NCBI RefSeq assembly: GCF_001984175.1
Contig: NZ_MTQP01000067.1
Coordinates: forward strand, 310,001-374,000
Direction: 5' to 3'
DNA from: Saccharothrix sp. ALI-22-I
GTDB taxonomy: Bacteria; Actinomycetota; Actinomycetes; Mycobacteriales; Pseudonocardiaceae
Length of the DNA stretch: 64,000 nucleotides
The translations under genes were made by a program, and so were the position numbers. The notes under the pieces were generated by a model, which did no database searches, was not told where the DNA came from, and saw nothing but the letters and a program-made list of their open reading frames with translations. Shown piece after piece: positions 3,771 to 15,337 of the stretch; position 1 is the stretch's first letter; each line of letters starts with the position of its first letter.

Positions 3771-4466
3771 TCAGCCCTGCGAAACGGGCGGGACGTAGAC
3801 GACAAGGAGCCCCTCGGCGATCTCTTCAGCCGCTTCGATGGTGTAGGTGCCGGACCAGCCGGGCTGCAACCAGCGCCCCGTCCCGTCCTTAACGAAGACC
3901 TGCCCGCTGACCTCGTTCACGATCACCGCGCCGGGACGCAGGGCCGTCAGGTCGGCAAAGTCGAGCACCTTCCGGTAGGTGGGCGCGTCGGTCAGCACCA
4001 CCAACTCCTTCGCCCGGAAGGGGAAGACGATGGACGAGCCGTCGAGCTTCACGTACACGAAGCCGAACTCGATCTCCCGCACCGTGCCCGTGGTGCCCCG
4101 CGGCGCAGTGCCGGGGGTCGCGTCGGACATCACGCGGACGCGGTCGCCCACGGCGATCGAGGGGGCGTACTCGGCGGGCGCGGCCTGGATCTTGACCGGG
4201 TCCAAGAAGACCGTGCCGCCGGTCTCGGTCCGGGCGAAGTAGTGCTTGCCCCCGTCCGACACAGGGTCGTCCGCCAGCTCGATGATCGTGAAGACCTGGG
4301 CGTGTGGGTGGTCGCGCAGCACGACCTCGTCCCCGGCCTCGAAGACCGGGAGGACGTCCTGCCTGGGCCCGGTGGTCGGATCGCCGTCGATCGTCACCGA
4401 GCCGAGGGTCCCGACCATCACGACCGCGCCCCCCGTCTGACCACTCAGGTTGTTCTCAACGTACAC
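3771..4466 (-). CDS. Phage protein with repeated SH3-like beta modules (231 aa)
   Basis: GTG at 4466 is chosen because GAAGGAG lies 7 nt upstream and a promoter-like site lies at 4491. The protein is almost all beta. Segments such as FEAGDEVVLRDHPHAQVFTI and IAVGDRVRVMSDATP, followed by TGTVREIEFGFVYVKLDG, look like KOW/SH3-type barrels repeated two or three times. Such modules usually bind protein or nucleic acid. No specific role is claimed. Confidence 0.65.
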   Translation of the reverse strand: MYVENNLSGQTGGAVVMVGTLGSVTIDGDPTTGPRQDVLPVFEAGDEVVLRDHPHAQVFTIIELADDPVSDGGKHYFARTETGGTVFLDPVKIQAAPAEYAPSIAVGDRVRVMSDATPGTAPRGTTGTVREIEFGFVYVKLDGSSIVFPFRAKELVVLTDAPTYRKVLDFADLTALRPGAVIVNEVSGQVFVKDGTGRWLQPGWSGTYTIEAAEEIAEGLLVVYVPPVSQG

Positions 4467-4490
4467 TGTGGACTCCTTCGCTCCGTTGTC

Positions 4491-4530
4491 TCTCAGGTTA
4501 CACACTGCGTACTGGGTGTGCAAGCTGGGA
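4491..4530 (-). promoter_or_regulatory. Inverted pair of the dispersed 14-bp site
   Basis: TGTGTAACCTGAGA (minus strand, 4491-4504) faces a degenerate copy TGTGCAAGCTGGGA (plus strand, 4517-4530). The minus copy is placed as promoter/operator for the gene starting at 4466. Confidence 0.5.
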
Positions 4531-4541
4531 TACGTGAAAAA

Positions 4542-5114
4542 TCAGGCCGATCGCTTGGGCGAGTCGAACCGGTCATCGGTGCCGATGTCCCGGAGCTGGA
4601 ACGACAGCATCGCCAGGCAGTGCCAGGCGGCGTGCGCCAGGTGCGGCAGGCCGCTTTCCGGGTCGAGCTCCTCGCCCGCCCAGAACGCCAACAGGTGCCG
4701 CTGGCAGGCGTCAAAGCTCAGGCTCCAGGCGTAGCCGCGCAAGTAGTTGTGCTGGTCGTACTTCGCGGCACCGAAGCCGGACGCCTCGGCCAGCACGAGC
4801 AGGGCCTTGGGATCGAGGCTGCCCAGCGAGGCCAGCTTCTTGCCCTTCGCCCCGCCGGTCTCCGACACGACGCGGACCTCCTCGCCGCGCTTGAGCGGCG
4901 CGGCGGCCTCCGGCAGTCGCAGGCGCACGCGCTCGATCCGCGGGGACGCCTCTCGGCCGCTCTCCAGCAAGATGTTCACGCGCCAGCGGTCGTCGTCGTC
5001 GCGCCACATCACCGGACCCGAGGCGGGGACCGTGCCACGCACGTGACCGAAGTTGCCCGCGAAGACCTCGACGTCGTCACCAGCCCCGAAGGGGAGGGAG
5101 GGGCTCTTGGTCAT
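4542..5114 (-). CDS. dATP/dGTP diphosphohydrolase-domain-like phage protein (190 aa)
   Basis: ATG at 5114 overlaps the upstream stop (TGATG). The C-terminal two-thirds resembles the phage family called dATP/dGTP diphosphohydrolase N-terminal domain (DUF5664): LAEASGFGAAKYDQHNYLRG, then ACQRHLLAFWAGEELDPES and LPHLAHAAWHCLAMLSF, an all-alpha NTP-pyrophosphatase-type fold. The first ~65 residues look like a separate SH3-like beta module (DDVEVFAGNFGHVRGTV). If active it would shape the dNTP pool during infection. The substrate cannot be read from the sequence. Confidence 0.65.
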   Translation of the reverse strand: MTKSPSLPFGAGDDVEVFAGNFGHVRGTVPASGPVMWRDDDDRWRVNILLESGREASPRIERVRLRLPEAAAPLKRGEEVRVVSETGGAKGKKLASLGSLDPKALLVLAEASGFGAAKYDQHNYLRGYAWSLSFDACQRHLLAFWAGEELDPESGLPHLAHAAWHCLAMLSFQLRDIGTDDRFDSPKRSA

Positions 5115-5395
5115 CAGGCGGCCCGCAGCTCGCGCAGCTCGATGTACGGCGCCCACTCGGGGTGCCGCGACACCAGCTCGCGGGCGTAACGGGAGGTGTA
5201 GATGTCGTTCAGAGCGAACGTGCCAGGGGCAACGGCCTTGCTCCGCTCCCACCTCATACGCTCCCAGAGCATCTTCACTCCAAGCTTGCGCTTGCCTGCC
5301 TCGAACCACTCGACGGCCAACCGTTCCAGGGTTTCGAGCACCTCTGGGTTGTCCAGGTGGAACTGCTCGAACCTCTGCTGGATCGTCTGCTGCAC
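5114..5395 (-). CDS. Conserved phage hypothetical protein (93 aa)
   Basis: GTG at 5395 follows GGAGGAG. The layout FHLDNPEVLETLERLAVEWF then KLGVKMLWERMRWE and YTSRYARELVSRHPEWA recalls a widespread small phage protein of unknown function. It is probably helical and DNA-associated, which is an inference. It is the first gene downstream of ribozyme copy 1 and is coupled to the 4542-5114 gene. Confidence 0.65.
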   Translation of the reverse strand: MQQTIQQRFEQFHLDNPEVLETLERLAVEWFEAGKRKLGVKMLWERMRWERSKAVAPGTFALNDIYTSRYARELVSRHPEWAPYIELRELRAA

Positions 5396-5412
5396 TAGGC
5401 GCTCCTCCTCAT

Positions 5413-5473
5413 GGCAGGCTCATCAGCGGTGGGATGCCAGCCCACCGGACCGTCCGCGCGGGACGGTTTCGCC
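5413..5473 (-). ncRNA. Type II hammerhead ribozyme, copy 1
   Basis: Minus strand: GGC, GAAA, stem III CCGUCC/GGACGG, UC, stem I CGGUGGG/CCCACCG with loop CUGGCAU, CUGAUGA, GCC. Predicted cut between 5448 and 5447. It abuts the TGA of the upstream gene (5474) and precedes the ribosome site of 5114-5395. Confidence 0.87.
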
Positions 5474-5923
5474 TCAGCTCTGCGGCTTGGACTCGTTGTA
5501 GTAGCGGGCCCAGAAGTTGGTGATCGTCGCGTCGATCACCAGGTGTGGCACCTCGACGATGCGCGCAACGAGGCCGCGCACCAGCGCCGCGTCGCCCGCC
5601 TCGCGTGCCAGGCGTGCGAAGTCCTGGTACGCACGTTCCTTGCGTGCCAGCAAGGGCGCCGCTCGCTCGTGCAGCTCCCCGTGGGACAGCGCAACCACAT
5701 GGCGCACATAGGCACTCATCGCCCCGTCGTTCACCAGGCGCAGGTCCCACACCACCTGCGGAATGGCCGGGATCAGGACGCTGATCGCGTCGATGCACCC
5801 GTTGCACCGGTTGCGGTCGTTGCCCGCGTGGTAGATCGAAGACCCCATCGCGTTGGTCTCTGGGCAGCCCGGCGTGTAGCACAGGCCGCCGAAGTTGCCC
5901 CTTACCCCAGCGGTCGCGGTCAT
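5474..5923 (-). CDS. Phage protein with Cys pairs (149 aa)
   Basis: ATG at 5923 behind GAGGGGA. The N-terminus has CYTPGCPE and later CNGC, which could form a zinc site. The rest is predicted helical (ARKERAYQDFARLAREAG) and ends in NFWARYYNES. No family is recognised. It lies between ribozyme copies 2 and 1, so its mRNA would be monocistronic after cleavage. Confidence 0.6.
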   Translation of the reverse strand: MTATAGVRGNFGGLCYTPGCPETNAMGSSIYHAGNDRNRCNGCIDAISVLIPAIPQVVWDLRLVNDGAMSAYVRHVVALSHGELHERAAPLLARKERAYQDFARLAREAGDAALVRGLVARIVEVPHLVIDATITNFWARYYNESKPQS

Positions 5924-5940
5924 CTTGCTCCCCTCGTTTT

Positions 5941-5996
5941 GGCAGGCTCATCAGCGCAGGGATGCCAGCTCTGCGGACGCCTCACGGCGTTTCGCC
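5941..5996 (-). ncRNA. Type II hammerhead ribozyme, copy 2
   Basis: GGC, GAAA, stem III CGCC-GUGA-GGCG (GNRA loop), UC, stem I CGCAGAG/CCCUGCG (one A-C mismatch), loop CUGGCAU, CUGAUGA, GCC. Predicted cut between 5976 and 5975. Confidence 0.84.
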
Positions 5997-6000
5997 TTGC

Positions 6001-6201
6001 TCAGGACCCGTCGAGGCCCTTGAACTCGGCCAGGGCCTGCACTCGCGCCTCGTCCGCGTCGTCGGCCTCGACACCGAAGAACCAGCCCCTGTCGTGCTGG
6101 TCAACGATGTTGACCTGGCCGCGCGTCACGGCCGCGACCGTGAGGTCTTCGCCGTCCTCGCTGGTCACTCCGATCACCGTGTAGAAGTCCATCTCGCTCA
6201 C
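6001..6201 (-). CDS. Small acidic phage protein (66 aa)
   Basis: GTG at 6201 follows GAGGAGGAG. It is beta-rich first (FYTVIGVTSEDGEDLTVAAV) then helical with acidic residues (EADDADEARVQALAEF), a common layout of small phage proteins resembling C-terminal 'EA..A..A' helices. Function unknown. It lies between ribozyme copies 3 and 2. Confidence 0.6.
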   Translation of the reverse strand: MSEMDFYTVIGVTSEDGEDLTVAAVTRGQVNIVDQHDRGWFFGVEADDADEARVQALAEFKGLDGS

Positions 6202-6211
6202 TCCTCCTCTT

Positions 6212-6270
6212 GGCAGGCATCATCAGCACGGACACGCCAGGTCCGTGAACCCCCGAGAGGGGGTTTCGCC
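6212..6270 (-). ncRNA. Type II hammerhead ribozyme, copy 3
   Basis: GGC, GAAA, stem III CCCCC-UCUC-GGGGG, UU (cleavage residue U), stem I CACGGAC/GUCCGUG, loop CUGGCGU, CUGAUGA, one extra U, GCC. Predicted cut between 6248 and 6247. Confidence 0.8.
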
Positions 6271-6274
6271 TTGG

Positions 6275-6634
6275 TCAGGCGGTGGGGCCGGGGTCCGCGT
6301 AGCCCGCAATAACCCCGTTCGCGTGGTGCACGTAGACGTGCGGCCCCTCCAACTCCAGGTAGCCCACCTCCGGGACGAGCTCCTCGGCCGGAGTGCTCCC
6401 GTCCTCGACGGTCGGCACGTCGTAGCCGCCGCAGCCGTCGAAGTCCTCCGCCAACTGCCACCGCTCACCGCAGCAGGTGTCCGCGTCGTCGAAGTTCAAG
6501 CCGATCTCGCTGGCCCGGCGGTTGGCCTCCTCGGCGGAGGTTGCCTCGATCACCACGTGCTTCGTGATCCCGCGGGCCCGGTCGAACACGAACCGACCGC
6601 CCGTGTTGGTCTGCCGGAACTCGTAGAACTTCAT
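6275..6634 (-). CDS. Conserved actinophage hypothetical protein (119 aa)
   Basis: ATG at 6634 behind AGGGAG. The pattern KFYEFRQTNTGGRFVFD, then VIEATSAEEANRRASEIGLNF, then TCCGERW matches a small protein family common in actinophages that has no known function; the Cys pair and GCGGYD may bind metal. It lies between ribozyme copies 4 and 3. Confidence 0.65.
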   Translation of the reverse strand: MKFYEFRQTNTGGRFVFDRARGITKHVVIEATSAEEANRRASEIGLNFDDADTCCGERWQLAEDFDGCGGYDVPTVEDGSTPAEELVPEVGYLELEGPHVYVHHANGVIAGYADPGPTA

Positions 6635-6649
6635 GGGTCACTCCCTCTT

Positions 6650-6706
6650 GGCAGGCTCCTCAGCACGGACATGCCAGGTCCGTGGACCCCGCCAGGGGGT
6701 TTCGCC
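6650..6706 (-). ncRNA. Type II hammerhead ribozyme, copy 4
   Basis: GGC, GAAA, stem III CCCC/GGGG with loop CUGGC, UC, stem I CACGGAC/GUCCGUG, loop CUGGCAU, CUGAGGA (the free position 7 is G), GCC. Predicted cut between 6685 and 6684. Confidence 0.84.
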
Positions 6707-6708
6707 GG

Positions 6709-7038
6709 TTACCGCTCCACCTCGCTCAGGTCGAGGAAGTGGCGAATGCCGAGCGGTCGCGTGACGCGGCGCCACTCGGTGCCGTAGTGCTCCCTGGCGT
6801 GCCGGTCGCACAGCGCGACGTTGTCCGAGCTGCCCTCCAGGCACGTCCCTCGTGCGTCGCAGTAATCGCAGATCGGCCGGACCTTTACCGACTCCACGAA
6901 CGCGGCGTCCGACCACTGCCCTTCCGCGTGGCAGACCAGCACCTTGGCGTCGGTGGAGCTGAACGCCAGCGTGTGGACCGTCGCGGACTCCTTGCCACGC
7001 CTCAGCGTGACGGCGTACTCCCTGACCAAAATGCTCAT
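6709..7038 (-). CDS. Phage protein with zinc-finger-like centre (109 aa)
   Basis: ATG at 7038 after GAGAGGUGACCC. It has a beta N-terminus (REYAVTLRRGKESATVHTLA), then CDYCDARGTC and ALCDRHAREHYG, a CxxC...CxxH arrangement that suggests one zinc. The same CDYC/CDRH form occurs in other small actinophage proteins. Function unknown. It lies between ribozyme copies 5 and 4. Confidence 0.6.
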   Translation of the reverse strand: MSILVREYAVTLRRGKESATVHTLAFSSTDAKVLVCHAEGQWSDAAFVESVKVRPICDYCDARGTCLEGSSDNVALCDRHAREHYGTEWRRVTRPLGIRHFLDLSEVER

Positions 7039-7054
7039 GGGTGACCTCTCGCTC

Positions 7055-7117
7055 GGCAGGCATCCTCAGCACGGGAATGCCAATCCCGTGGACCGCCTCC
7101 GGGGAGGCGGTTTCGCC
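7055..7117 (-). ncRNA. Type II hammerhead ribozyme, copy 5
   Basis: GGC, GAAA, stem III CCGCCUC/GAGGCGG, UC, stem I CACGGGA/UCCCGUG, loop UUGGCAU, CUGAGGA, one extra U, GCC. Predicted cut between 7091 and 7090. Confidence 0.82.
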
Positions 7118-7158
7118 GGTCTTAACGGGTGCCACTGGTACTGGCGCACAGGCAGCAC
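7066..7158 (-). CDS. Tiny ORF with RQxQW motif, running into ribozyme copy 5
   Basis: GTG at 7158 sits about 6 nt behind GGAAAGGAGGG, a very strong ribosome site for a 70-nt gap. The peptide starts MLPVRQYQWHPLR and shares the PxRQxQW pattern with the 12-aa peptide at 8208-8246. The frame then runs through the ribozyme and stops at the UGA of CUGAGGA, so a cleaved mRNA would have no stop codon. That is either a degraded remnant or a deliberate design. Low confidence. Confidence 0.3.
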   Translation of the reverse strand: MLPVRQYQWHPLRPAKPPPRRRSTGLAFPC

Positions 7159-7183
7159 AGGGCCGGCCCTCCTTTCCGTCCAC

Positions 7184-7240
7184 AGCAGACTCATCGGCGG
7201 CGGGATGCCAGCCCGCCGGACCCCGCGAGGGGGTTTCGTC
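7184..7240 (-). ncRNA. Degenerate type II hammerhead ribozyme, copy 6
   Basis: GAC, GAAA, stem III CCCC/GGGG, UC, stem I CGGCGGG/CCCGCCG, loop CUGGCAU, CCGAUGA, GUC. Stem II is changed on both strands (GGC/GCC to GAC/GUC), but the core U4 is C, which should damage cleavage. Predicted site between 7219 and 7218. Confidence 0.65.
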
Positions 7241-7247
7241 GTACGCC

Positions 7248-7544
7248 TCAGTCGGCGGCGTTGATGCGCGTGGTCACCCGCTCCTGGAAGCTCGCCCATG
7301 CGCGGTGCAGGTTGTCTCGCGTCGAGACGCTGTCGAAGTAGCGGCCCCAGGACCACTCCCGTGGGGCGTGTTCGAACACCGACACCACGCCGGTCGCGTA
7401 CTCCAGCCCCAAATCCCCGGACCTGGCCAGCAGGAGCACGCGCTCGCCGGAGCCGCCCAGGAAGTCGAAGTGCGCGACCACTCGGTAGGACCCGACCCGC
7501 TCGGGTACGGGCGCCGCCTTGGCAACCTCGGTCGTGGCGCTCAC
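7248..7544 (-). CDS. Phage protein of unknown function (98 aa)
   Basis: GTG at 7544 overlaps the upstream TGA (GTGA), so no ribozyme separates these two genes. It has a beta-rich core (GSYRVVAHFDFLGGSGERVLL) and C-terminal helices (DNLHRAWASFQERVTTRI). No family is recognised. It is followed by the degenerate ribozyme copy 6. Confidence 0.58.
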   Translation of the reverse strand: MSATTEVAKAAPVPERVGSYRVVAHFDFLGGSGERVLLLARSGDLGLEYATGVVSVFEHAPREWSWGRYFDSVSTRDNLHRAWASFQERVTTRINAAD

Positions 7545-7795
7545 GGGCTCACCCGGCCAGGCAGCACGCGCTTACGCACGCCGGTCGGCTCGCCGTTCTC
7601 GTCGAAGTGCACGAGGATCACCACGTGGGGGTTGTCGGAGTCCACGAAGCCGCAGTCCCGGTTGCCCATCAGGTGGCACTTCCAGCCGGGGTCGTCCTCC
7701 TGGAGCGTGCGCTCCGGGATCGCCACCAGGCTCGCCACAGCTAGGCTCGCCGCGAAGGCGAGCGCCGGGATTCTCCACAGCAGCCACTTGCGCAC
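7541..7795 (-). CDS. Small membrane-anchored or secreted phage protein (84 aa)
   Basis: GTG at 7795 follows GGAAGGAGAG. Residues 5-24 are one hydrophobic segment (LLWRIPALAFAASLAVASLV) after a basic start, so it is a signal anchor or signal peptide. The exported part carries two Cys (KCHLMGNRDCGF) that could form a disulfide. Together with the 10812-11000 gene it is one of two predicted membrane proteins in this operon. Confidence 0.6.
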   Translation of the reverse strand: MRKWLLWRIPALAFAASLAVASLVAIPERTLQEDDPGWKCHLMGNRDCGFVDSDNPHVVILVHFDENGEPTGVRKRVLPGRVSP

Positions 7796-7814
7796 GGCCG
7801 CTCTCCTTCCGTTG

Positions 7815-7874
7815 GGCAGGCTCGTCAGCCGAGGGATGCCAGCCCTCGGGACCACCGCACGGGGTGGTTTCGCC
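7815..7874 (-). ncRNA. Type II hammerhead ribozyme, copy 7
   Basis: GGC, GAAA, stem III CCACC/GGUGG, UC, stem I CCGAGGG/CCCUCGG, loop CUGGCAU, CUGACGA, GCC. Predicted cut between 7850 and 7849. The upstream stop is one base away. Confidence 0.86.
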
Positions 7875-7875
7875 G

Positions 7876-8115
7876 TCAGTGCTCGTCCATGAAGTCGGTG
7901 AACAGGCGCCGCGCCTCCCGGAGCAGGGCGAGGTACCCGTCTCTGGTCAACTTCGGGTCGTCCTCCGCGCCGCAGTAGTTCGCCCAGGGCTCGGCCCTGC
8001 CAGCGGCCACCTCTCGCTCCAGCAGCTCGACCGCGTCGCAAACCACGTGTCCGAGGTCGATGGCGAGCGTCGGCGTCGTGGTCGCGGGGAGGTTCCCCCG
8101 CTTCTCGATCTCCAT
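7876..8115 (-). CDS. Phage protein of unknown function (79 aa)
   Basis: ATG at 8115 is chosen because it is the first start after ribozyme copy 8 and has AAGGGA upstream; longer frames would read through the ribozyme. It is helical and acidic (LGHVVCDAVELLEREVAAGR, then LLREARRLFTDFMDEH). No family is recognised. Confidence 0.6.
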   Translation of the reverse strand: MEIEKRGNLPATTTPTLAIDLGHVVCDAVELLEREVAAGRAEPWANYCGAEDDPKLTRDGYLALLREARRLFTDFMDEH

Positions 8116-8134
8116 CTGTCTGTCCCTTGCTCTC

Positions 8135-8204
8135 GGCAGGCTCATCAGCCGAGGGATGCCAGCCCTCGGGACCGCCCCCGCGGACAGCGGGGCACGGTTT
8201 CGCC
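8135..8204 (-). ncRNA. Type II hammerhead ribozyme, copy 8 (long stem III)
   Basis: GGC, GAAA, two-part stem III (CCG/CGG then CCCCGC/GCGGGG), UC, stem I CCGAGGG/CCCUCGG, loop CUGGCAU, CUGAUGA, GCC. Predicted cut between 8170 and 8169. This is the longest copy. Confidence 0.84.
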
Positions 8205-8207
8205 GGT

Positions 8208-8246
8208 TCATCTGAAGAACCACTGGTCCTGGCGGATGGGGGGCAT
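8208..8246 (-). CDS. 12-aa RQxQW peptide ORF
   Basis: ATG at 8246 overlaps the upstream gene's stop (TGATG), giving MPPIRQDQWFFR and a UGA just before ribozyme copy 8. The same PxRQxQW pattern appears in the tiny ORF at 7158, so this may be a real coupled peptide. Too short to be sure. Confidence 0.35.
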   Translation of the reverse strand: MPPIRQDQWFFR

Positions 8247-8839
8247 CAGTGCCTGATCTCCCCGAAGCACGCGATCTGTGTGACCACGTCGCCCGACACG
8301 GGGTCGAGAGCGGCCGTCTCGATGCCGTGCTCGCCTCTGGTCTCCCACGCCCAGTGGAAGCGCTCCCCGGTGCGCCGGTAGGTGAGCGTCTGGCCGTGCT
8401 CGGCCAGCGCCAGGAAGGCGAATCGGATGTCGTCGCGGCTCAGGTGGAACACGACTCCTGTGTCCCTCTCCACGATCGTGAAGCTGGCCCACTCCGGGGT
8501 TTGGTCGTCCGGCCCGAGCAGCTCCGCGCCGTTCGGCGTGGCCCAGTAGCCGATCCCCGTGTCGGCTTGCTCCATGAGCTCGTCCACGTTCTCGTCGGTG
8601 ATGACGCTCCGGTCCTGGGCGGCGACCCACCCACTGATCGTCTGGACCTTCAGGTCGTAGACCTGGGCGCCGGACTCCCGCGCGAAGCCACCGTCGCCCC
8701 GCACGAACACCTTGGCGAAGCCGTTGTGCTCGGTTCCCCTGGTAACGCTGACGAAGGTCGCTACCTCGCCACGGAAGTTGACGATCTCGTCCCCCTCGTT
8801 GACCTGCTTGCCGTTCTTGTCCGTCACGCGGTACGGCAT
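8246..8839 (-). CDS. Phage protein of unknown function (197 aa)
   Basis: ATG at 8839 after GAGGGGAGAACGAG. It opens with a small beta module (YRVTDKNGKQVNEGDEIVNF then GEVATFVSVTRG) that resembles the SH3-like start of many phage hypothetical proteins. The C-terminal half is mixed. No catalytic motif is seen. The stop is coupled to the 12-aa ORF, and the gene lies between ribozyme copies 9 and 8. Confidence 0.6.
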   Translation of the reverse strand: MPYRVTDKNGKQVNEGDEIVNFRGEVATFVSVTRGTEHNGFAKVFVRGDGGFARESGAQVYDLKVQTISGWVAAQDRSVITDENVDELMEQADTGIGYWATPNGAELLGPDDQTPEWASFTIVERDTGVVFHLSRDDIRFAFLALAEHGQTLTYRRTGERFHWAWETRGEHGIETAALDPVSGDVVTQIACFGEIRH

Positions 8840-8857
8840 CTCGTTCTCCCCTCGTTC

Positions 8858-8916
8858 GGCAGGCTCGTCAGCCGGGGGATGCCAGCCCCCAGAACCACCG
8901 CGCAGGTGGTTTCGCC
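8858..8916 (-). ncRNA. Type II hammerhead ribozyme, copy 9
   Basis: GGC, GAAA, stem III CCACC/GGUGG, UU, stem I CUGGGGG/CCCCCGG (one G-U pair), loop CUGGCAU, CUGACGA, GCC. Predicted cut between 8893 and 8892. Confidence 0.84.
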
Positions 8917-8918
8917 GG

Positions 8919-9107
8919 TCAGCACCAGTAGTTCTCGCCGTCGTCGGCCGCGTCCGAGTGCAGGGCGCAGTAGCCGTCCCAGCCCTGACCGTCGTTCGCG
9001 TCCCCGTCGCAGTCGTCGGCCCGGCACGGCTCGTAGCCCTCGGTGTAATCGGGGCCCTCGTCCTCGTGGTCGTCGAGCTCGTCCGTCTCCACGGCCGGGG
9101 CGGTCAT
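8919..9107 (-). CDS. Small very acidic phage protein (62 aa)
   Basis: ATG at 9107 overlaps the upstream TGA (ATGA). It is rich in Asp and Glu (TDELDDHEDEGPDYTEGYEP) and has four Cys (CRADDC, CALHSD, final Cys), suggesting a small metal-binding or DNA-mimic-like protein. The latter is speculation based on charge alone. Confidence 0.55.
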   Translation of the reverse strand: MTAPAVETDELDDHEDEGPDYTEGYEPCRADDCDGDANDGQGWDGYCALHSDAADDGENYWC

Positions 9108-9415
9108 GCCTGCACGCCCTCGTGCTGCGAGGGCTCGCCGCCGTCGAACGCCTCGTTTCTGGCGTCCTCCCTGGTGCGGCTGTGGTCGTACTCGTCTTCG
9201 TCGTCCTCCTGGCCGCGCATCTCGGCGACCGCGTAGGACTCGGCACACTCCGCGTCCTCGGCCTGCACGCTGGTAGCCCAGCGCGAGAATCCGTCTGACC
9301 CCCATTCGGAGTCCGCCATCATGTGTTCGCCTTCGACCACTCCCGCGACCAGCGGCTTGTCGTCGATCCACAGGCCGATCACGGTGAAGGTGGGCAGCTC
9401 GACCGTCGTGGTCAT
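9104..9415 (-). CDS. Acidic phage protein of unknown function (103 aa)
   Basis: ATG at 9415 follows AGAGGGGAACGAACG and is the first start after ribozyme copy 10. The N-terminal beta region (LPTFTVIGLWIDDKPLVAGV) and WATSVQAEDAECAESYAVAE resemble other small actinophage proteins in this operon (compare 6001-6201). It has an acidic tail. Function unknown. Confidence 0.6.
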   Translation of the reverse strand: MTTTVELPTFTVIGLWIDDKPLVAGVVEGEHMMADSEWGSDGFSRWATSVQAEDAECAESYAVAEMRGQEDDEDEYDHSRTREDARNEAFDGGEPSQHEGVQA

Positions 9416-9434
9416 CGTTCGTTCCCCTCTCGTT

Positions 9435-9494
9435 GGCAGGCTCATCAGCGCAGGGATGCCAGCCCTACGGACCCGGTGCCAGCCGGGTTTCGCC
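9435..9494 (-). ncRNA. Type II hammerhead ribozyme, copy 10
   Basis: GGC, GAAA, stem III CCCGG/CCGGG, UC, stem I CGUAGGG/CCCUGCG (one U-G pair), loop CUGGCAU, CUGAUGA, GCC. Predicted cut between 9470 and 9469. It directly abuts the upstream TAA at 9495. Confidence 0.88.
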
Positions 9495-10403
9495 TTATCT
9501 GGGCTCGGGCTTCCGCTCGTGGGTGTCGAGCGCCCGGAGCAGGGAGATCAGTGCCGCGTTCCAGCCCAGGCCCCACAGGGAGGTCGGCTCTCGCAGCAGC
9601 GTCTTGCGCAACGTCGCGGTCAGGCTCGCGGCATCGACCGCGCGCAGCTCCTCGACCACGGTCATGACGACCTCGCCGACCAACGTGGAGACGTCCCAGT
9701 CGGGGTCCTTGGCGCGCGTCGCCGCGACGACGTTCTTCAGGTGCGCGGGACCGGCGACGACCGCCGTCCACACCTCGTCGGGAACCTGCGCCACGCGCGG
9801 GCTCGGGGCGTCGTCCTCGGACTCCTCGGACTCCTGGCCGTCCTCGCCCTTCAGGGCGTCAAGGGCCCGCTGCCCTTCCTCCTGGGCGTACTTCTCGTCG
9901 TAGAAGCCCCAGCAGGACTCCACTTCCTCCCAGGAGTCGCGCACGTCATCGGTGTCCGCACTGAGCCACACGGCCTGGCGCTCGATCACGTAGCCGACTG
10001 CTTCGCCGCGCGCCCACGTGCGGTACTCGGCGCGCTCGGCCTCCAGCATCTTCAGCCCGTATGCCTCGCGCCCTTCCGGCGCGTAGGCCAGGTTCAGGGC
10101 GTCGGGCATCGCGTACCAGATGGCGCGGGAGCCGTCCGGGGACGGGTATTCGAGCAGCACGGCCGCGCCGTGGATCACCCGTGCGTAGCGCTCGAAGATC
10201 CGCATCGCCGTGCTCGTGTCGTGGCGGTTGTCCAGCTCTCGCCACTGGTCGGCCAGCGGGCCGAAGTCGTCGTCGATCGGGATGTACTCGCGCAGATCGA
10301 CCGTGATCACGTTCGCGGTCTGCTCGAACATCTTGCGCGGGTTCTCGGCGTCCTCGTCCGGTTCGATCCGCATCCGGTAGGTCGGAACCAGGGTGCTCGT
10401 CAT
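9495..10403 (-). CDS. Large phage protein of unknown function (302 aa)
   Basis: ATG at 10403 after AGGGGGACCC. The first ~170 residues resemble a protein common in actinophages that begins with IEPDEDAENPRK and contains an ESCWGFYDEKYAQ-like stretch. An acidic linker near residue 190 (GQESEESEDDA) joins a helical C-terminal domain. No enzymatic motif is visible. It lies between ribozyme copies 11 and 10. Confidence 0.65.
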   Translation of the reverse strand: MTSTLVPTYRMRIEPDEDAENPRKMFEQTANVITVDLREYIPIDDDFGPLADQWRELDNRHDTSTAMRIFERYARVIHGAAVLLEYPSPDGSRAIWYAMPDALNLAYAPEGREAYGLKMLEAERAEYRTWARGEAVGYVIERQAVWLSADTDDVRDSWEEVESCWGFYDEKYAQEEGQRALDALKGEDGQESEESEDDAPSPRVAQVPDEVWTAVVAGPAHLKNVVAATRAKDPDWDVSTLVGEVVMTVVEELRAVDAASLTATLRKTLLREPTSLWGLGWNAALISLLRALDTHERKPEPR

Positions 10404-10420
10404 GGGTCCCCCTTGCTCAT

Positions 10421-10476
10421 GGCAGGCTCGTCAGCGGTGGGATGCCAGCCCACCGGACCCCTCTCGGGGTTTCGCC
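10421..10476 (-). ncRNA. Type II hammerhead ribozyme, copy 11
   Basis: GGC, GAAA, stem III CCCC-GAGA-GGGG (GNRA loop), UC, stem I CGGUGGG/CCCACCG, loop CUGGCAU, CUGACGA, GCC. Predicted cut between 10456 and 10455. This is one of the shortest copies. Confidence 0.87.
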
Positions 10477-10478
10477 AG

Positions 10479-10727
10479 CTACGCCACGTAGGCGTGCGCG
10501 ACCTTCAGGAAGTCGCCGTAGGTTCTCGGCGTGGCCTCCAGAAAGCGGCTCGGGTCCACGACGGCCATCGACGACCACCGGTCACGGCCCGGTGCCTTCA
10601 TGCCGAACATCAGGCCCGTCGTGCCGCGCACGTTCACGAGCTGGAACCGACACCCGTTCTCACCCGCGCTCCACTCCACGCCGAAGGCGGCCGGGTTGCT
10701 GACGTTGGCGAACTTCACTTCGCTCAT
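10479..10727 (-). CDS. Phage protein of unknown function (82 aa)
   Basis: ATG at 10727 follows AAGGGACAGCC and is the first start after ribozyme copy 12. The layout (VKFANVSNPAAFGVEWSAGE then GCRFQLVNVRG) is beta-rich with a C-terminal helix. No family is recognised. Confidence 0.6.
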   Translation of the reverse strand: MSEVKFANVSNPAAFGVEWSAGENGCRFQLVNVRGTTGLMFGMKAPGRDRWSSMAVVDPSRFLEATPRTYGDFLKVAHAYVA

Positions 10728-10744
10728 GGCTGTCCCTTGCTCTT

Positions 10745-10806
10745 GGCAGGCATCATCAGCCGAGGGATGCCAGCCCTCGGGACCGTCCACACCGGACGGT
10801 TTCGCC
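10745..10806 (-). ncRNA. Type II hammerhead ribozyme, copy 12
   Basis: GGC, GAAA, stem III CCGUCC/GGACGG, UC, stem I CCGAGGG/CCCUCGG, loop CUGGCAU, CUGAUGA, one extra U, GCC. Predicted cut between 10781 and 10780. Confidence 0.82.
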
Positions 10807-10811
10807 GGACA

Positions 10812-11000
10812 TCAGGGGTTCTCGACGCACACCCGGTACGTGGTGCCGTCCGGCGTGGCGGACCGGTACTCGCCAGCGCACATGACGCCGCTGACCGTGT
10901 CGGGCGAGACGGCTGCGACAAGGAAGACCATTCCGACCGCCGCAGCGACGGAGATCATCCAGACGATCACGAACACCGACAGGGCACGCCGAACTGTCAC
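10812..11000 (-). CDS. Small membrane protein (62 aa)
   Basis: GTG at 11000 follows GAGGAGTTCCC. Residues 8-31 form one strong hydrophobic helix (VFVIVWMISVAAAVGMVFLV) after RR, and two Cys lie outside (VMCAGEY, RVCVENP), so the tail is probably external and may be disulfide-bonded. Function unknown. It lies between ribozyme copies 13 and 12. Confidence 0.6.
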   Translation of the reverse strand: MTVRRALSVFVIVWMISVAAAVGMVFLVAAVSPDTVSGVMCAGEYRSATPDGTTYRVCVENP

Positions 11001-11018
11001 GGGAACTCCTCGGTGAAT

Positions 11019-11078
11019 GGCGGGCTCATCAGCACGGGAATGCCAATCCCGTGGACGGGAGACCTCTCCCGTTTCGCC
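11019..11078 (-). ncRNA. Type II hammerhead ribozyme, copy 13
   Basis: GGC, GAAA, stem III CGGGAG/CUCCCG, UC, stem I CACGGGA/UCCCGUG, loop UUGGCAU, CUGAUGA, GCC. The 3' flank is CGCCA instead of UGCC. Predicted cut between 11054 and 11053. Confidence 0.86.
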
Positions 11079-11085
11079 GTGGCGG

Positions 11086-11643
11086 TTACTTGGCGACGTA
11101 CTTGCACCGGACCCGCACGCCGTGGTGCAGTCCCTTGCACTTGATCTCCCCCAGGGTTCGGCCTGGAACCAGCAGCTTCTTTCGGGAGATCGCCTCCAGG
11201 TCGTCGATTTCCCCCTTCCCCAGCGCCTCGTAGTGCTGGCGGTTCTCCGCGCTCACCACCGGGACACCGGGGAATGCCTGGGCCCACATGCGGAAGTAGA
11301 GGCCCATCGCGGGCATTTGCAGGGGGGCGATCGTGCTCATGTAGGAGCACAGGCAGCACACCTCTGCTGCCGTGCCGGGCCGCGTGTCGGCACCACTGAC
11401 CACGCGCTTGAGCAGCTCCCGGCAATGTCCCCTGTAGACCAGCTCCACAGCCATGCGTGGGTTGTCCGTCTTCAGCAAGGGGAAGCTGTGGTAGAGCTCG
11501 TTCGCCTTGGACGGACTTCGACGAATCGCGCGCCGGATCTCGTCTTCCGCCCACTCCAGTTGGTTGAAGGCGGTGTCCAGCACCTTGACCGTGTCGTAGC
11601 CCAAGAGCTGGACGATGGCTGGGGTGTCGATCATTTTGGGCAT
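11086..11643 (-). CDS. Phage protein of unknown function (185 aa)
   Basis: ATG at 11643 is preferred (GGGUGG 7 nt upstream); ATG at 11661 is possible. It is mostly alpha-helical (VLDTAFNQLEWAEDEIRRAI), with a CCLCSY in the middle and a basic end (GVRVRCKYVAK). It may be structural or nucleic-acid-associated. No family is recognised. It lies between ribozyme copies 14 and 13. Confidence 0.58.
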   Translation of the reverse strand: MPKMIDTPAIVQLLGYDTVKVLDTAFNQLEWAEDEIRRAIRRSPSKANELYHSFPLLKTDNPRMAVELVYRGHCRELLKRVVSGADTRPGTAAEVCCLCSYMSTIAPLQMPAMGLYFRMWAQAFPGVPVVSAENRQHYEALGKGEIDDLEAISRKKLLVPGRTLGEIKCKGLHHGVRVRCKYVAK

Positions 11644-11671
11644 GTGAAAGCCACCCGTCATTTCTCGAATT

Positions 11672-11731
11672 GGCAGGCTCATCAGCACGGGAATGCCAAT
11701 CCCGTGGACGGGAGTCGCCTCCCGTTTCGCC
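11672..11731 (-). ncRNA. Type II hammerhead ribozyme, copy 14
   Basis: GGC, GAAA, stem III CGGGAG-GCGA-CUCCCG (GNRA loop), UC, stem I CACGGGA/UCCCGUG, loop UUGGCAU, CUGAUGA, GCC. Predicted cut between 11707 and 11706. Confidence 0.88.
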
Positions 11732-11759
11732 AACCGGCTGTGTGGGGGCGACTCGACGG

Positions 11760-12335
11760 TCAGAGCTGACCGATCGCCTTTGCCAGGAGGACCGCCAACT
11801 CGGGCGTGGTCTCGATCTTGAACTTGACCGAGCCGTACCGGGGGTCTACCGAAACCCGCGTGTGACCGTTCCAGCCACCGAGGGTCACCTCGTGGTCCCG
11901 CTCGCTCACCTTGGCGTCCTGGCCCATCGCGGCGCGGATCTCCTCCGCCAGCGCCGCAATGCGGGCCTCGTTCTCCTCGTGCGCCCGCTTGCGCTTCTGC
12001 GCCTCCGCGAACACCGGAGCCGCGACGGGCAGGAGTCGGCGCGTGATGTCGCCCGCGACCTGCTTGGGCGTCTTCTTGATCGAGACGTTGATGTCGCCCG
12101 TGCTCGCGTCGTAGGGCTTGAAGTGGTGCAGCTCCCCCAGCGCGCCGGAGATCGACATGTGGGTCTTGCTGGTGTAGTGGTTCTGCGCCATGTGCAGGCG
12201 CACGCCGTCCGGGCCGTCCAGGTAGGCGTCCTGCGCGTGGGACCAGTGCCCCTCGGACGCGCTCCACCCGTCGCCCAGCTCCACGGCTACGTCCTTCGCG
12301 ATTGCGAACACGTCAACCCGCGTTTCGGTCATCAT
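11760..12335 (-). CDS. Phage protein of unknown function (191 aa)
   Basis: ATG at 12335 is chosen from three nearby starts because AGGAG lies 8 nt upstream. The protein has an N-terminal alpha/beta part, a basic coiled-coil-like helix (EAQKRKRAHEENEARIAALA) and a C-terminal beta part (GWNGHTRVSVDPRYGSVKF). No motif gives a function. It lies between ribozyme copies 15 and 14. Confidence 0.6.
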   Translation of the reverse strand: MMTETRVDVFAIAKDVAVELGDGWSASEGHWSHAQDAYLDGPDGVRLHMAQNHYTSKTHMSISGALGELHHFKPYDASTGDINVSIKKTPKQVAGDITRRLLPVAAPVFAEAQKRKRAHEENEARIAALAEEIRAAMGQDAKVSERDHEVTLGGWNGHTRVSVDPRYGSVKFKIETTPELAVLLAKAIGQL

Positions 12336-12352
12336 CAAGATCACTCCTAGAT

Positions 12353-12409
12353 GGCAGGCATCATCAGCACGGACACGCCAGGTCCGTGGACCCCCGCAGG
12401 GGTTTCGCC
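12353..12409 (-). ncRNA. Type II hammerhead ribozyme, copy 15
   Basis: GGC, GAAA, stem III CCCC/GGGG, UC, stem I CACGGAC/GUCCGUG, loop CUGGCGU, CUGAUGA, one extra U, GCC. Predicted cut between 12389 and 12388. Confidence 0.82.
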
Positions 12410-12411
12410 AG

Positions 12412-12627
12412 TTACGCGGCTTCCAGCTCGGTTCTGACCATGAAGTTCTGCGCCGACTCCATGTCCGGGAACTCGAAGACGTCCGGGGGCAACCCGTCTT
12501 CCAGTGCCGTGATCACCACGTACGTGTCGTGGCTGGTGTCGCGCTCGTGGATCGAGACGATGCGCCCGTCCGGCAGCTCGACCCAGTCACAGCGCCCCAG
12601 CTCCGTGCCCTCGTCCACGCCGCTCAC
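12412..12627 (-). CDS. Small phage protein (71 aa)
   Basis: GTG at 12627 overlaps the stop of the upstream gene (GTGA), so this pair shares one processed mRNA. It is a beta-rich acidic protein (CDWVELPDGRIVSIHERDTS). No family is recognised. Confidence 0.55.
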   Translation of the reverse strand: MSGVDEGTELGRCDWVELPDGRIVSIHERDTSHDTYVVITALEDGLPPDVFEFPDMESAQNFMVRTELEAA

Positions 12628-13025
12628 CCCTCGTGCCGGTCGTGGACGCGGACCGCGAACCCACCGGGGAGCAGCGCGTCGAACCGAGAGTCCGACGAGT
12701 CCGCGAAGTTCCCCCCGTGCATCCACCAGCGCCCATCCGGCTGCCAGGTCTCCTGGTCGGCTGGGATGATGTAGCGGTCGTTCGGGCCGTGTCGCCCGAT
12801 CACCAGGTAGACGGCCGGACGGTCCTCGGACGGCGCGGAAACCTGGCTCCCCTTGTCCAGTGGACTCACCGTGGGCTTCACGCCAGGGGCGTAGATGTTC
12901 AGGTAGCTCACGGTGCCGATCAGCACGCACTCGTCGTGCCGTGCGGAGATTCCGCCCAGGGTGTAGTCCCCACCCCGTGCGAGCCGGTAGAAGTCCAGCC
13001 TGAGGCCCTTGGGCTTCTCGCTCAT
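12624..13025 (-). CDS. Phage protein of unknown function (133 aa)
   Basis: ATG at 13025 follows GAAGGGATCTTC-type spacing and is the first start after ribozyme copy 16. It has a beta-rich centre (ECVLIGTVSYLNIYAPG, then VYLVIGRHGPNDRYIIPA) and ends in a coupled GTGA junction. No known fold can be named. Confidence 0.58.
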   Translation of the reverse strand: MSEKPKGLRLDFYRLARGGDYTLGGISARHDECVLIGTVSYLNIYAPGVKPTVSPLDKGSQVSAPSEDRPAVYLVIGRHGPNDRYIIPADQETWQPDGRWWMHGGNFADSSDSRFDALLPGGFAVRVHDRHEG

Positions 13026-13042
13026 GAAGATCCCTTCGTCAT

Positions 13043-13104
13043 GGCAGGCTTCATCAGCACGGGAATGCCAATCCCGTGGACCGTCGCGAATGGACGGTTT
13101 CGCC
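13043..13104 (-). ncRNA. Type II hammerhead ribozyme, copy 16
   Basis: GGC, GAAA, stem III CCGUC/GACGG, UC, stem I CACGGGA/UCCCGUG, loop UUGGCAU, CUGAUGA, one extra A, GCC. Predicted cut between 13079 and 13078. Confidence 0.82.
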
Positions 13105-13110
13105 GAATGA

Positions 13111-13869
13111 TCAGGAGGCAAGCGGGAGCGCGAACTGGTCCGGGTCCACGTACGGAGCCCGCCAGGCGTCGCGGATGGTCTCGATCACGTGCTCCACGGC
13201 CTCGTCGTGGCCGTTGTTCGTGATCTCCGTCGCGCCCTGGAACTCCCAGTCGTTGCCCTCGAACTCGAAGTAGAGGGACTTGATCTCCTCGTCGCTGAAC
13301 CCGAGGTCGTCCGAGTTGTAGTCGGTGAGGTCTTCCAGCGCGGAGGACAGCTCACGGGCGTAGTAGTTGACCCAGGTGTCCTCGATCACCGCTTGGCGGT
13401 GGTCCTCCAGGACGTCGTCGTCAAGGCACACCACGTCGCCCTGGGTCAGTGCCTCGACCACCTCGACCAGGGTCTTCAGCCGCTCGATGCCGACGTCGAT
13501 CGTGTCGTCGGTGATGACCGGGAGCTCTCCGAGCTGGACCCAGGCGGCCTGCCACCCGTGCGACCCACCTCTGGTGTTTAGGCCGTACTGGTCCTCCAGG
13601 ACCGCCACGTTCGCGGCGTCGTACTCGTCGCCGTTGTAGTCCGAGTATTCGGCGACGGTCACGGTCACGGCCGGGTAGTCGTACGTCTCCGCGCCGTCGC
13701 TCATGACGAGCTGGTAGAGCCACTCCGGCTCGATCTTGTCGAGCCCACGGCCGTATCTGTCCTCGGACAGGCCAACCCGGTGGCAGCTCAGCAGGCGCTC
13801 CCACAGCTCCACGACCTGGGCGTACTGGTCCGGGGAGTAGGCGTGGTAAATCCGAATCTCAGCGCTCAT
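13111..13869 (-). CDS. Acidic phage protein of unknown function (252 aa)
   Basis: ATG at 13869 behind AGGGGAATC. It is strongly acidic throughout (EYSDYNGDEYDAAN, then LTDYNSDDLGFSDEEIKSLY), alternating helices and strands. High acidity is typical of early phage proteins that mimic DNA or bind host basic proteins, but that is only an inference. It lies between ribozyme copies 17 and 16. Confidence 0.6.
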   Translation of the reverse strand: MSAEIRIYHAYSPDQYAQVVELWERLLSCHRVGLSEDRYGRGLDKIEPEWLYQLVMSDGAETYDYPAVTVTVAEYSDYNGDEYDAANVAVLEDQYGLNTRGGSHGWQAAWVQLGELPVITDDTIDVGIERLKTLVEVVEALTQGDVVCLDDDVLEDHRQAVIEDTWVNYYARELSSALEDLTDYNSDDLGFSDEEIKSLYFEFEGNDWEFQGATEITNNGHDEAVEHVIETIRDAWRAPYVDPDQFALPLAS

Positions 13870-13889
13870 GATTCCCCTTGGGGCGAAGG

Positions 13890-13950
13890 GCAGGGCATCG
13901 TCAGCGCGGGGATGCCAGCCCCGCGGACAGGGGTCTCCCCCTGTTTCGCC
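13890..13950 (-). ncRNA. Type II hammerhead ribozyme, copy 17 (most upstream)
   Basis: GGGC, GAAA, stem III CAGGGG-GAGA-CCCCUG (GNRA loop), UC, stem I CGCGGGG/CCCCGCG, loop CUGGCAU, CUGACGA, one extra U, GCCC. Stem II can form 4 bp. Predicted cut between 13926 and 13925. It is the first ribozyme of the transcript. Confidence 0.85.
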
Positions 13951-13953
13951 CGG

Positions 13954-14571
13954 TCAGTTCTCGCGGTCCTCGCGGGCCCACTTCAGGCGGGCGTCGTAGA
14001 TCAGCTCGGAGATGTCGCACTCGTGCGTCATGGCGTCTTCGATCAGCGCTTCCGCACGGTCCAGTCGCCCTTCGGTCAGAGCGAGGGCGGACTTCAGTAG
14101 CGCGGCCCGGACGTGGGCGTGGGGAGACAGCTCTCCCCGGTCGTCCGTGAGGTAGTAGTCCCCGACCAGCTCGACGTCGGACTTGTCGAGCGTGAGCAGG
14201 GTGCCGATCAGGGAGTCGGCCATCTGGAGGTGCTGCTCCAGCGCATCGTTGGCCCACTTGTCCCGCATGACGCGGAGGTTGAAGGCCACATCCTCGCCGT
14301 TGTCGATCAGCGAGTCGTAGAGCTCCTCGGCGCGCTCCGAGGAGCCGACCAGTCCCGTCAGGGACAGGCGCAGCGCCTGCTGGACCAGGGCCCACGGCTT
14401 CGCCGCGTAGAAGCCCTCGGACTCCACGACATGGGTGTTGTCGTTCTCGTAGAACCCAGGCAGTGCCCCGCCCGACATGTTGAACTCGTAGAGCAGCTCA
14501 CGCAGTCGGTCCGCCAAGCGGATGTGCGTCGCCTCCGCAGCGGCGGAAGGGGTCGCGGTGGTGGTGCTCAT
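13954..14571 (-). CDS. First gene of the ribozyme operon, unknown function (205 aa)
   Basis: ATG at 14571 follows GAUGAGG; a promoter-like site ends about 12 bases upstream, so the leader is very short. It is largely alpha-helical (RLADRLRELLYEFNMSGGAL, then HLQMADSLIGTLLTLDKSD) and acidic. No family is recognised. As the leader gene of the 13954-5114 operon it would be free of any upstream ribozyme. Confidence 0.62.
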   Translation of the reverse strand: MSTTTATPSAAAEATHIRLADRLRELLYEFNMSGGALPGFYENDNTHVVESEGFYAAKPWALVQQALRLSLTGLVGSSERAEELYDSLIDNGEDVAFNLRVMRDKWANDALEQHLQMADSLIGTLLTLDKSDVELVGDYYLTDDRGELSPHAHVRAALLKSALALTEGRLDRAEALIEDAMTHECDISELIYDARLKWAREDREN

Positions 14572-14583
14572 GGATACCTCATC

Positions 14584-14597
14584 TCTCAGGTTACACA
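14584..14597 (-). promoter_or_regulatory. Promoter-like 14-bp site for the ribozyme operon
   Basis: TGTGTAACCTGAGA on the minus strand, 12 bases upstream of the ATG at 14571. The TAACCT would serve as -10 for the whole 14571-5114 transcript. Confidence 0.55.
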
Positions 14598-14607
14598 CTC
14601 GGTCCGG

Positions 14608-14635
14608 AAAAAAGACCCACCGCTCCGATGGGTCT
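14608..14635 (-). terminator. Intrinsic terminator, minus strand
   Basis: AGACCCA/UGGGUCU 7-bp stem with a 9-nt loop, followed by UUUUU on the minus strand. It lies between two minus-strand promoter-like sites (14701 and 14584) and would end a transcript of about 90 nt from the former. Confidence 0.75.
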
Positions 14636-14700
14636 CCGACCTTGCGCCCGCCGCCGCTTCCGAGGCACGCCGTCCGATTTCGACGGTAACGACAGGCTAA
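14608..14700 (-). ncRNA. Candidate ~90-nt small RNA or attenuator leader
   Basis: It starts just after the TGTGTAACCTGAGA site at 14701-14714 and ends at the terminator. Inside is a second hairpin (CCGUC/GACGG). No start codon with a ribosome site is seen. It could be a phage regulatory RNA or an attenuator in front of the ribozyme operon. Confidence 0.4.
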
Positions 14701-14714
14701 TCTCAGGTTACACA
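14701..14714 (-). promoter_or_regulatory. Dispersed 14-bp site
   Basis: TGTGTAACCTGAGA on the minus strand. With its flank it forms a near-palindrome (TCTCAGGT, 5 nt, ACCTGGGA), supporting an operator role as well as a -10. Confidence 0.5.
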
Positions 14715-14731
14715 CCTGGGACTAAGAATTC

Positions 14732-14858
14732 GGCAGCATCGTTCCTGCCTGGGCTCCGCACGTGATGGTCTTCCACGCGCTTCCCAGGGGTATCGGCTGG
14801 CCCTTCCACGTGCCACCCGCAAGGGTGGCTATCGGGCTGCCCGTATGCGATGCCGCAT
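14732..14858. ncRNA. Tandem hairpins, candidate structured RNA
   Basis: Five hairpins follow each other: GGCAG/CTGCC (14732-14749), CCTGGG/CCCAGG with inner pairs (14748-14788), GCCACCC-GCAA-GGGTGGC (14812-14829), CGGG/CCCG (14833-14843), ATGCG/CGCAT (14845-14858). A minus-strand site at 15005 could transcribe them. The strand is uncertain. Confidence 0.35.
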
Positions 14859-15004
14859 GTCCGGTTACTCGCTATTTAGTTCAGAAAGAACAAGCCTTTA
14901 GCGGCTAGCCGAGGGACGCTCCGGACTTAGCGGCCATTTCTGGCGACCAGTATCCGGTCCCTCTCTTTCGTGCTGTGTCAAACCTTAGCAGGCCCGACTC
15001 GAAT

Positions 15005-15261: not shown

Positions 15262-15279
15262 ATTCAGTTCTTAAGGACC

Positions 15280-15324: not shown

Positions 15325-15337
15325 CACGGCAAACATT

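Follow-up and report, generated by a model that had tools for sequence, protein, structure and literature searches.

Seventeen predicted type II hammerhead ribozymes between the genes of one operon in an R4-like prophage

What is the role of an RNA element that recurs 17 times between the genes of a single operon? This question is raised by a stretch of 64,000 nucleotides from Saccharothrix sp. ALI-22-I (contig NZ_MTQP01000067.1, positions 310,001 to 374,000; 68.4% GC), here called the window, in which 17 copies of a type II hammerhead ribozyme are predicted on the minus strand between positions 5410 and 13950. We consider it likely that these ribozymes cut the RNA of the leftward operon of an R4-like prophage as it is transcribed, releasing stable and insulated mRNAs that end in hairpins. 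Below, we describe the elements, the operon and prophage that carry them, and their counterparts in related phages, after which we weigh this reading against others.

Anatomy and identity of the 17 elements

All 17 copies reported in a preliminary description of this DNA were present, each of them intergenic and none overlapping a called gene. In the direction of transcription, they lie at 13888-13950 (predicted cut 13926/13925), 13041-13104 (13079/13078), 12351-12409 (12389/12388), 11669-11731 (11707/11706), 11016-11078 (11054/11053), 10743-10806 (10781/10780), 10418-10476 (10456/10455), 9432-9494 (9470/9469), 8855-8916 (8893/8892), 8132-8204 (8170/8169; a copy with a long stem III), 7812-7874 (7850/7849), 7181-7240 (7219/7218), 7053-7117 (7091/7090), 6647-6706 (6685/6684), 6210-6270 (6248/6247), 5938-5996 (5976/5975), and 5410-5473 (5448/5447). 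A loose scan for the core on both strands of the window returned these 17 and five further, unparsed loose matches (one minus, four plus).

When the copies were parsed one by one, stems I and III were closed by loops and stem II was open in all 17. The core motifs were as first described: GAAA is kept in every copy, position 17 is a C in 15 copies and a U in 2 (8855-8916 and 6210-6270), and CUGANGA is exact in 16, the exception being the variant at 7240-7181, which reads CCGAUGA and has a GAC/GUC stem II. Stem I has 7 base pairs in 16 of the 17, with a single internal mismatch in the copy at 5996; this too agreed with the preliminary description, although we counted nine sequence versions of the stem rather than about eight. 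Stem III, of 5-8 base pairs, pairs in all copies, as had been claimed. Loop I reads YUGGCRU throughout.

Several lines of evidence support the assignment to type II hammerheads that had been made from the order of the stems. The Rfam model RF02276 (Hammerhead_II), run on 15 kb, recovered all 17 copies with 26.7-44.5 bits (E 1.8e-6 to 0.084), and no further matches were listed in 3000-18000. Each copy had E <0.1 in these 15 kb, and 7 of the 17 scored above the gathering score of 37 bits. The copies share with the Rfam family the same core, stem order, and short open stem II; they differ from it in that ten fall under its cut-off (26.7-36.1 bits) and in the narrow range of loop I sequences within the window. 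A covariance model built from the 17 copies (R1), as the preliminary description had proposed, scored them at 67.6-78.7 bits, with the next best match at 17.4 bits in the 124 kb searched and no window match above 16.3 bits outside the copies.

Covariation in the alignment of the 17 sequences pointed the same way. Of its 323 paired cells, 97.8% can pair, compared to 82.2% with shuffled partners and 31-48% when the strands are slid. Changes on both sides of a pair occur in 49 cells versus 14.0 in shuffles, none of 500 of which reached 49. These double changes are present in stems I, II, and III, with just one in stem II. Two further measures were less extreme: the number of pairs with a double change (8) was reached by 41 of 500 shuffles, and that of further pair types (19) by 118 of 500. 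In addition, loop I can form a pseudoknot with the tail downstream of stem II (UGGCA with UGCCA), for which 92.9% of cells are paired in the 17 copies. Among the 118 copies that could be parsed out of 121 matches in relatives, found with a search model that does not contain the pseudoknot, loops fitted their own tails better than permuted ones (4.38 vs 3.88; 0 of 1000 permutations; 95 distinct pairs).

The related phages introduced below carry the same features. The core was intact in 52 of 56 copies in four prophages, including that of the window, and in 150 of 152 parsed copies in 16 phage isolates (2 of 154 could not be parsed), counts that are biased upward in that both the homology search and the parser favor intact cores. 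Stem II in the relatives is chiefly GGC, GCC, TGC, GTC, or GAC, and occurs in compensatory versions (GCC/GGC 26, TGC/GCA 10, GTC/GAC 5, and GAC/GTC 2); a three-base complement is found close to where the tail begins in 54 of 56 copies from the prophages and 151 of 152 from the isolates. Rfam, covariation, the intact core, and the pseudoknot between loop I and the tail thus support the identity of the elements as predicted type II hammerheads.

The operon and its prophage

The array region runs from the gene at 14571-13954 through that at 5395-5114 and, by our own gene calls, comprises 21 genes and 20 boundaries. Its first gene (13954-14571, minus strand) encodes a protein of 205 aa for which neither Pfam nor PHROGs gave a match at E 0.05, and is followed by 20 further called genes of 12 to 302 aa on the same strand (5114-13869), arranged in ribozyme-bounded units. 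Pfam and PHROGs assigned a function to none of the array genes scanned. Ribozymes follow a simple position rule: wherever neighboring genes are 74 nt or more apart, at 16 boundaries, there is one (in one case two), whereas none of the 4 boundaries with gaps of at most 5 nt holds any. The first ribozyme begins 0-7 nt after the stop codon at 15 of the 16 occupied boundaries, and 28 nt after it at the other. Likewise, the leader from the predicted cut to the next start codon, which could be mapped for 16 copies, measures 50-56 nt in all but one of them, where it is 63 nt long.

Self-cutting of the operon follows from this anatomy as a prediction. The proposal that it would cut itself into single-gene mRNAs fits 11 of the 16 predicted inner units; a further 4 hold two genes each, which nearly abut or overlap, and 1 holds only a broken mini-ORF. 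Promoters or terminators in place of ribozymes were rejected on the results of a scan: a sigma-70 consensus search of 3000-17100 gave 0 promoter-like sites (0.4 expected), and of the 6 terminator-like sites in the same region (6.9 expected) none was listed inside the array. Both results fit a single leftward transcript.

Beyond the array, the run of genes on the same strand continues without ribozymes (1506-5114) and includes genes for a dGTP_diPhyd_N protein (4542-5114) and a DUF7239 protein (1506-1883). An integrase gene on the minus strand (1-1249; Phage_integrase E 0.042, below the Pfam cut-off) extends 151 bases past the left end of the window. Genes for the terminase large subunit, portal, tape measure, Dit, and minor tail proteins lie on the plus strand (18435-36374). 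Judged from these sequences, the array belongs to a siphovirus prophage whose relatives include Streptomyces phage R4. Its terminase has at best 78.8% identity to R4-group Streptomyces phages; the best 15 terminase matches of 1984 records had 77.7-78.8% identity and were all to Streptomyces phages, among which the records examined place Tefunt, Omar, Caelum, phiScoe1, and Spernnie in the Arquatrovirinae. The genome layout, compared by eye, agrees with that of R4-like phages, including a series of small leftward genes next to the integrase. Unlike those phages, the prophage resides in a member of the Pseudonocardiaceae, its array is denser, and a megablast search with 4800-14800 found zero DNA relatives among phages or plasmids. 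The leftward operon with the array is probably early or accessory.

In the examined portion of the IMG/VR record 2856781440_000005, 15 matches recur with identical scores and spacing. By coordinate arithmetic the record spans about -151 to 51513 of the window, which suggests a prophage of about 51 kb. A tRNA-Trp gene lies just ahead of the late genes (16949-17021, plus strand); phage Salutena also carries such a gene, located toward the right end of its sequence record (L158, 14340-14413).

Arrays and moving units in related phages

The preliminary description had asked whether related actinophages show the same layout, and they do. Among 25 genomes of the genus, including that of the window, one other (G019) carried 14 copies and three had one weak match each. 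Among 390 genomes of the family Pseudonocardiaceae, again with the window genome included and with stricter filters, arrays were found in four: the window prophage (17 copies), G019 (14), G245 (12), and G383 (13); six other genomes had one or two matches. The integrase and terminase proteins of the window prophage are 94% and 96% identical, respectively, to those of G019. Matches of any kind occurred in 14 of 397 genomes sampled in the order and 3 of 396 sampled in the phylum, both counts including the window genome, apart from which no genome had more than 4 among the matches listed. In IMG/VR, a pattern scan yielded 73 stretches, two of them from the window prophage, in which R1 gave 408 matches.

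In 16 R4-like isolates, we found 154 matches at E 0.01 or better, with 8 to 12 in each and all on the strand of the leftward genes. Phage R4 itself, whose recorded host is the laboratory strain Streptomyces coelicolor A3(2), has 8 copies. Since 15 of the 16 isolates were chosen because they were listed with ribozyme or early-region matches, and the other, Omar, for its terminase match, the presence of arrays in all 16 is no measure of prevalence. Six isolates were read as IMG/VR records, the identity of record and isolate being confirmed only for Daudau (100% over 13,706 bases). Three deposited mini-genes of R4, gp60.1, gp67.1, and gp75.1, coincide with predicted ribozymes (L116, 5763-5846, 8126-8218, and 11074-11175), as does gp79 of Caelum (L118, 11007-11099). 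With four deposited phage genes sitting atop predicted ribozymes, the finding bears on annotation, and these may be spurious gene calls.

Shorter rows of matches were seen elsewhere. Rhodobacter phage RcSimone-Hastad, of an unrelated host line, has three consecutive matches (L117, 9184-9824), two of 41.0 and 35.8 bits and a weak, unparsed third of 20.7 bits. Four copies within 4 kb in Cellulomonas sp. SG140 (L125, 894-4735) and three within 1.2 kb in Haloactinopolyspora alba (L134, 2596-3749) are perhaps further prophage arrays.

Comparison of the four prophages showed that units bounded by ribozymes are gained, lost, and moved. Within the array, 27 of 48 gene adjacencies are kept, whereas among the neighboring ribozyme-free genes, counted for shared genes of at least 30 aa, all 47 of 47 are (Fisher P 5.7e-8, calculated over genome pairs that are not independent); the ribozyme-free run is collinear in all four. 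The differences consist of single missing units and of two genes swapped in G383 and in G245, while G019 is reordered more strongly. Total scrambling was rejected, as the longest common order ranges from 4 of 6 to 12 of 13 genes. Array genes shared among the four prophages are 33-88% identical.

We then asked which part of each ribozyme follows which neighboring gene, using reciprocal best hits among the four prophages. At 26 junctions with a shared gene on the upstream side only, stem III was more alike than by chance (0.737 vs 0.561; 0 of 500 permutations), while stem I and the tail were at chance (96 and 185 of 500). At these junctions, the start spacer and the start of the downstream ORF were also somewhat alike (6 and 4 of 500), which suggests that some orthologues were probably missed. 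At 30 junctions with a shared gene on the downstream side only, stem III was at chance (287 of 500), and stem I, the tail, and the start spacer were alike (0, 23, and 0 of 500). Because genome pairs are not independent, these counts are not to be read as probabilities. In earlier forms of the test, stem III likewise followed the upstream gene, and stem I followed both sides. A test on flanking DNA alone, run at two thresholds (9 and 14 junctions for the first, 9 and 16 for the second), gave the same split of stem III and tail but no clear side for stem I.

In the four prophages, then, stem III tracks the upstream gene and the tail tracks, less strongly, the downstream gene. In the 16 isolates, by contrast, stem III, stem I, and the tail each follow both flanks, and the split seen in the prophages is not reproduced. 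A clean division, in which stem III goes with the gene before it and stem I with the gene after it, was therefore rejected as a general rule, given the isolates and the earlier test forms. For the four prophages alone, exchange junctions seem to lie inside the ribozyme.

Some small features of the arrays recur as well. A 12-aa mini-ORF at 8208-8246 on the minus strand (MPPIRQDQWFFR) is kept in all four prophages; the family reads M[LP]P[IT][RL]Q[DE]Q[WY]F[FH]R, with members at 2455 in L018, 7855 in L135, and 1607 in L138. It overlaps the stop codon of the preceding gene in four of four prophages and is followed at once by a ribozyme in three. A second 12-aa family, M[QP]PIRQ[HY]QWHPL, is found at about 7158-7120 of the window (minus strand), at 463 in L024, at 7602 in L135, and at 853 in L138. 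In three relatives it lies immediately 5' of a ribozyme, and in G019 and G383 it is the sole ORF of a unit of about 120 nt flanked by two ribozymes. The copy in the window has a GTG start and is missing its stop codon, so that its frame enters the next ribozyme. At the boundary that holds two ribozymes, the first is unusual in three prophages (window 7181-7240, minus strand; G019 31950; G383 27403, in joined coordinates): the core is altered in the window prophage and in G019, which also has A17, and stem II is GAC/GTC in the window prophage and in G383.

A proposed mechanism, its alternatives, and its precedents

We propose that the RNA folds as the polymerase passes each copy, with stem III, stem I, the short open stem II, and the pseudoknot of loop I and tail forming in the nascent transcript, and that it would then cut itself after C17 or U17. 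At its 5' end, each released mRNA would carry a hydroxyl set right at the stem I hairpin, some 50 nt ahead of the start codon; at its 3' end, just past the stop codon, it would carry the stem III hairpin and a terminal 2',3'-cyclic phosphate. As only about 3 base pairs of stem II join the products, these should part easily. The hairpins at both ends would shield the message from exonucleases and, by analogy with engineered ribozyme insulators, free the expression of each gene from that of its neighbors. From such a single transcript, cleavage in cells, stabilization, and insulation, all of which we infer, independent expression would follow; no rewiring would then be needed when a unit comes in, drops out, or changes place, in keeping with the gene order in relatives.

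A number of observations weigh against this proposal. Thermodynamic folding on its own is weak (z -0.40 to -3.14), and both hairpins appear in 10 of the 17 minimum-energy folds, judged by reading of folds computed without the pseudoknot; in several of these the core strand is itself paired. Six of the 17 copies have an extra nucleotide between CUGANGA and stem II, a U in five of them (13950, 12409, 10806, 7117, and 6270, minus strand), and the core of the copy at 7240 is altered. The pseudoknot helix shows no double change within the 17 copies. The position rule is partly built in, because ribozyme and leader together fill about 74 nt, and past the array the 9 boundaries between 5114 and 1506 hold zero ribozymes, even though four of their gaps measure 32-75 nt and two of these 75 nt. 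Finally, the promoter scan was limited to the sigma-70 consensus.

The chief alternative is that cleavage is regulated and each ribozyme acts as a switch, which we regard as possible but unlikely. In one form, a terminating ribosome would cover stem III and the 5' strand of stem II and block folding, so that cleavage reports on translation of the upstream gene; in another, a protein or ligand would shift the RNA between an active fold and a misfolded one. The close spacing of stop codons and ribozymes at 15 of 16 boundaries suits the former. The latter is suited by strong alternative pairings in several copies: in those at 13950 and 10806, the minimum-energy fold pairs GGCAUC of loop I with GAUGCC and so replaces the hammerhead, a modeled pairing that could serve as a switch. 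Perreault et al. (PMC3088659) also raise regulation for phage hammerheads. However, compaction of the genome would yield close stop codons as well, only 51 of the 154 ribozymes in the isolates have a called stop at a distance of -5 to 10 nt (by rough gene calls), and no extra attached domain was seen. Spread of a selfish or neutral ribozyme, copied between genes and tolerated since cleavage between cistrons does little harm, appears improbable. In its favor, stem I versions are common to copies of one prophage and copy number varies from 8 to 17 among relatives; against it, every wide boundary in the array is occupied and the core is intact in 202 of 208 parsed copies despite gene identities of 33-88%, an argument weakened by the search and parser that favor intact copies.

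Slightly less probable still is a role mainly at the level of DNA, in which the elements are homology seams for cassette exchange or protein-binding sites and RNA cleavage is incidental. It would account for gene turnover in the array and not outside it, and for junctions that seem to fall inside the element in the four prophages. Neither seams nor binding sites, however, would be expected to show covarying paired bases, fixed unpaired catalytic bases, and copies that all lie in the coding direction. Very improbable, lastly, is religation or circularization of the cleaved pieces into RNA circles: hammerhead ends suit ligation and retrozymes use RNA circles (PMC6155905 and PMC7761336), yet Perreault et al. 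state that spliced or circular products were undetected (their data not shown; PMC3088659). Cleavage into separate, insulated messages thus remains our preferred reading. An extension of it, offered tentatively and somewhat less likely than its negation, is that the array forms a natural set of insulated, swappable gene parts. The moving unit would be the self-cleaved message (stem I and leader, gene, stop codon, and stem III), with junctions near the cut site, so that two working ribozymes are restored wherever it lands; in its boldest form, units would travel by way of RNA, with the ribozymes defining the ends of the intermediate.

The preliminary description knew of no comparable array, a claim that holds only in part: the clustered layout and the idea of processing are already known. 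In the account of Perreault et al. 2011, hammerheads clustered in prophages, several in a row, flank single genes or short gene blocks, processing into single-gene lengths is proposed, and type II hammerheads with a pseudoknot between loop I and tail are included (PMC3088659). Three tandem arrangements were cleaved in vitro, and a triple from Agrobacterium also in E. coli. Two reviews add that hammerheads are often closely spaced around small ORFs and linked to phages, their roles being open (2017; PMC6155905), and that all three hammerhead types occur in phage and prokaryotic genomes (2020; PMC7761336). The locus in the window is of this kind, with siphovirus genes in the same element and 16 occupied boundaries. 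It differs from the clusters described in that 17 copies lie in one operon, that 8-17 recur across a phage group, and that units change places, although the contrast in size leaves out Figure 3 and Dataset S1 of that paper, where a larger cluster may be present. In searches of the open-access literature, none of the titles and abstract openings listed dealt with hammerhead arrays in Streptomyces phages. As far as our searches reach, the size of the array, its recurrence with 12-14 copies in three prophages of the same family and 8-12 in 16 selected isolates, and the gain, loss, and movement of ribozyme-bounded units among four prophages are new.

An engineered counterpart exists in RiboJ, which consists of a hammerhead plus a hairpin. 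Placed ahead of a gene in E. coli, this self-cleaving insulator lessens dependence on neighboring parts; transcript levels rose by an average of about twofold and protein levels by two- to tenfold (PMC6206723). RiboJ is engineered and used singly, whereas the array is natural and serial and would also set the 3' end of the upstream message; the two may work alike without being related. If our reading is true, nature would have its own version of engineered insulators in this array, and catalytic RNA would have a part in shaping how genes are shuffled among these phages.

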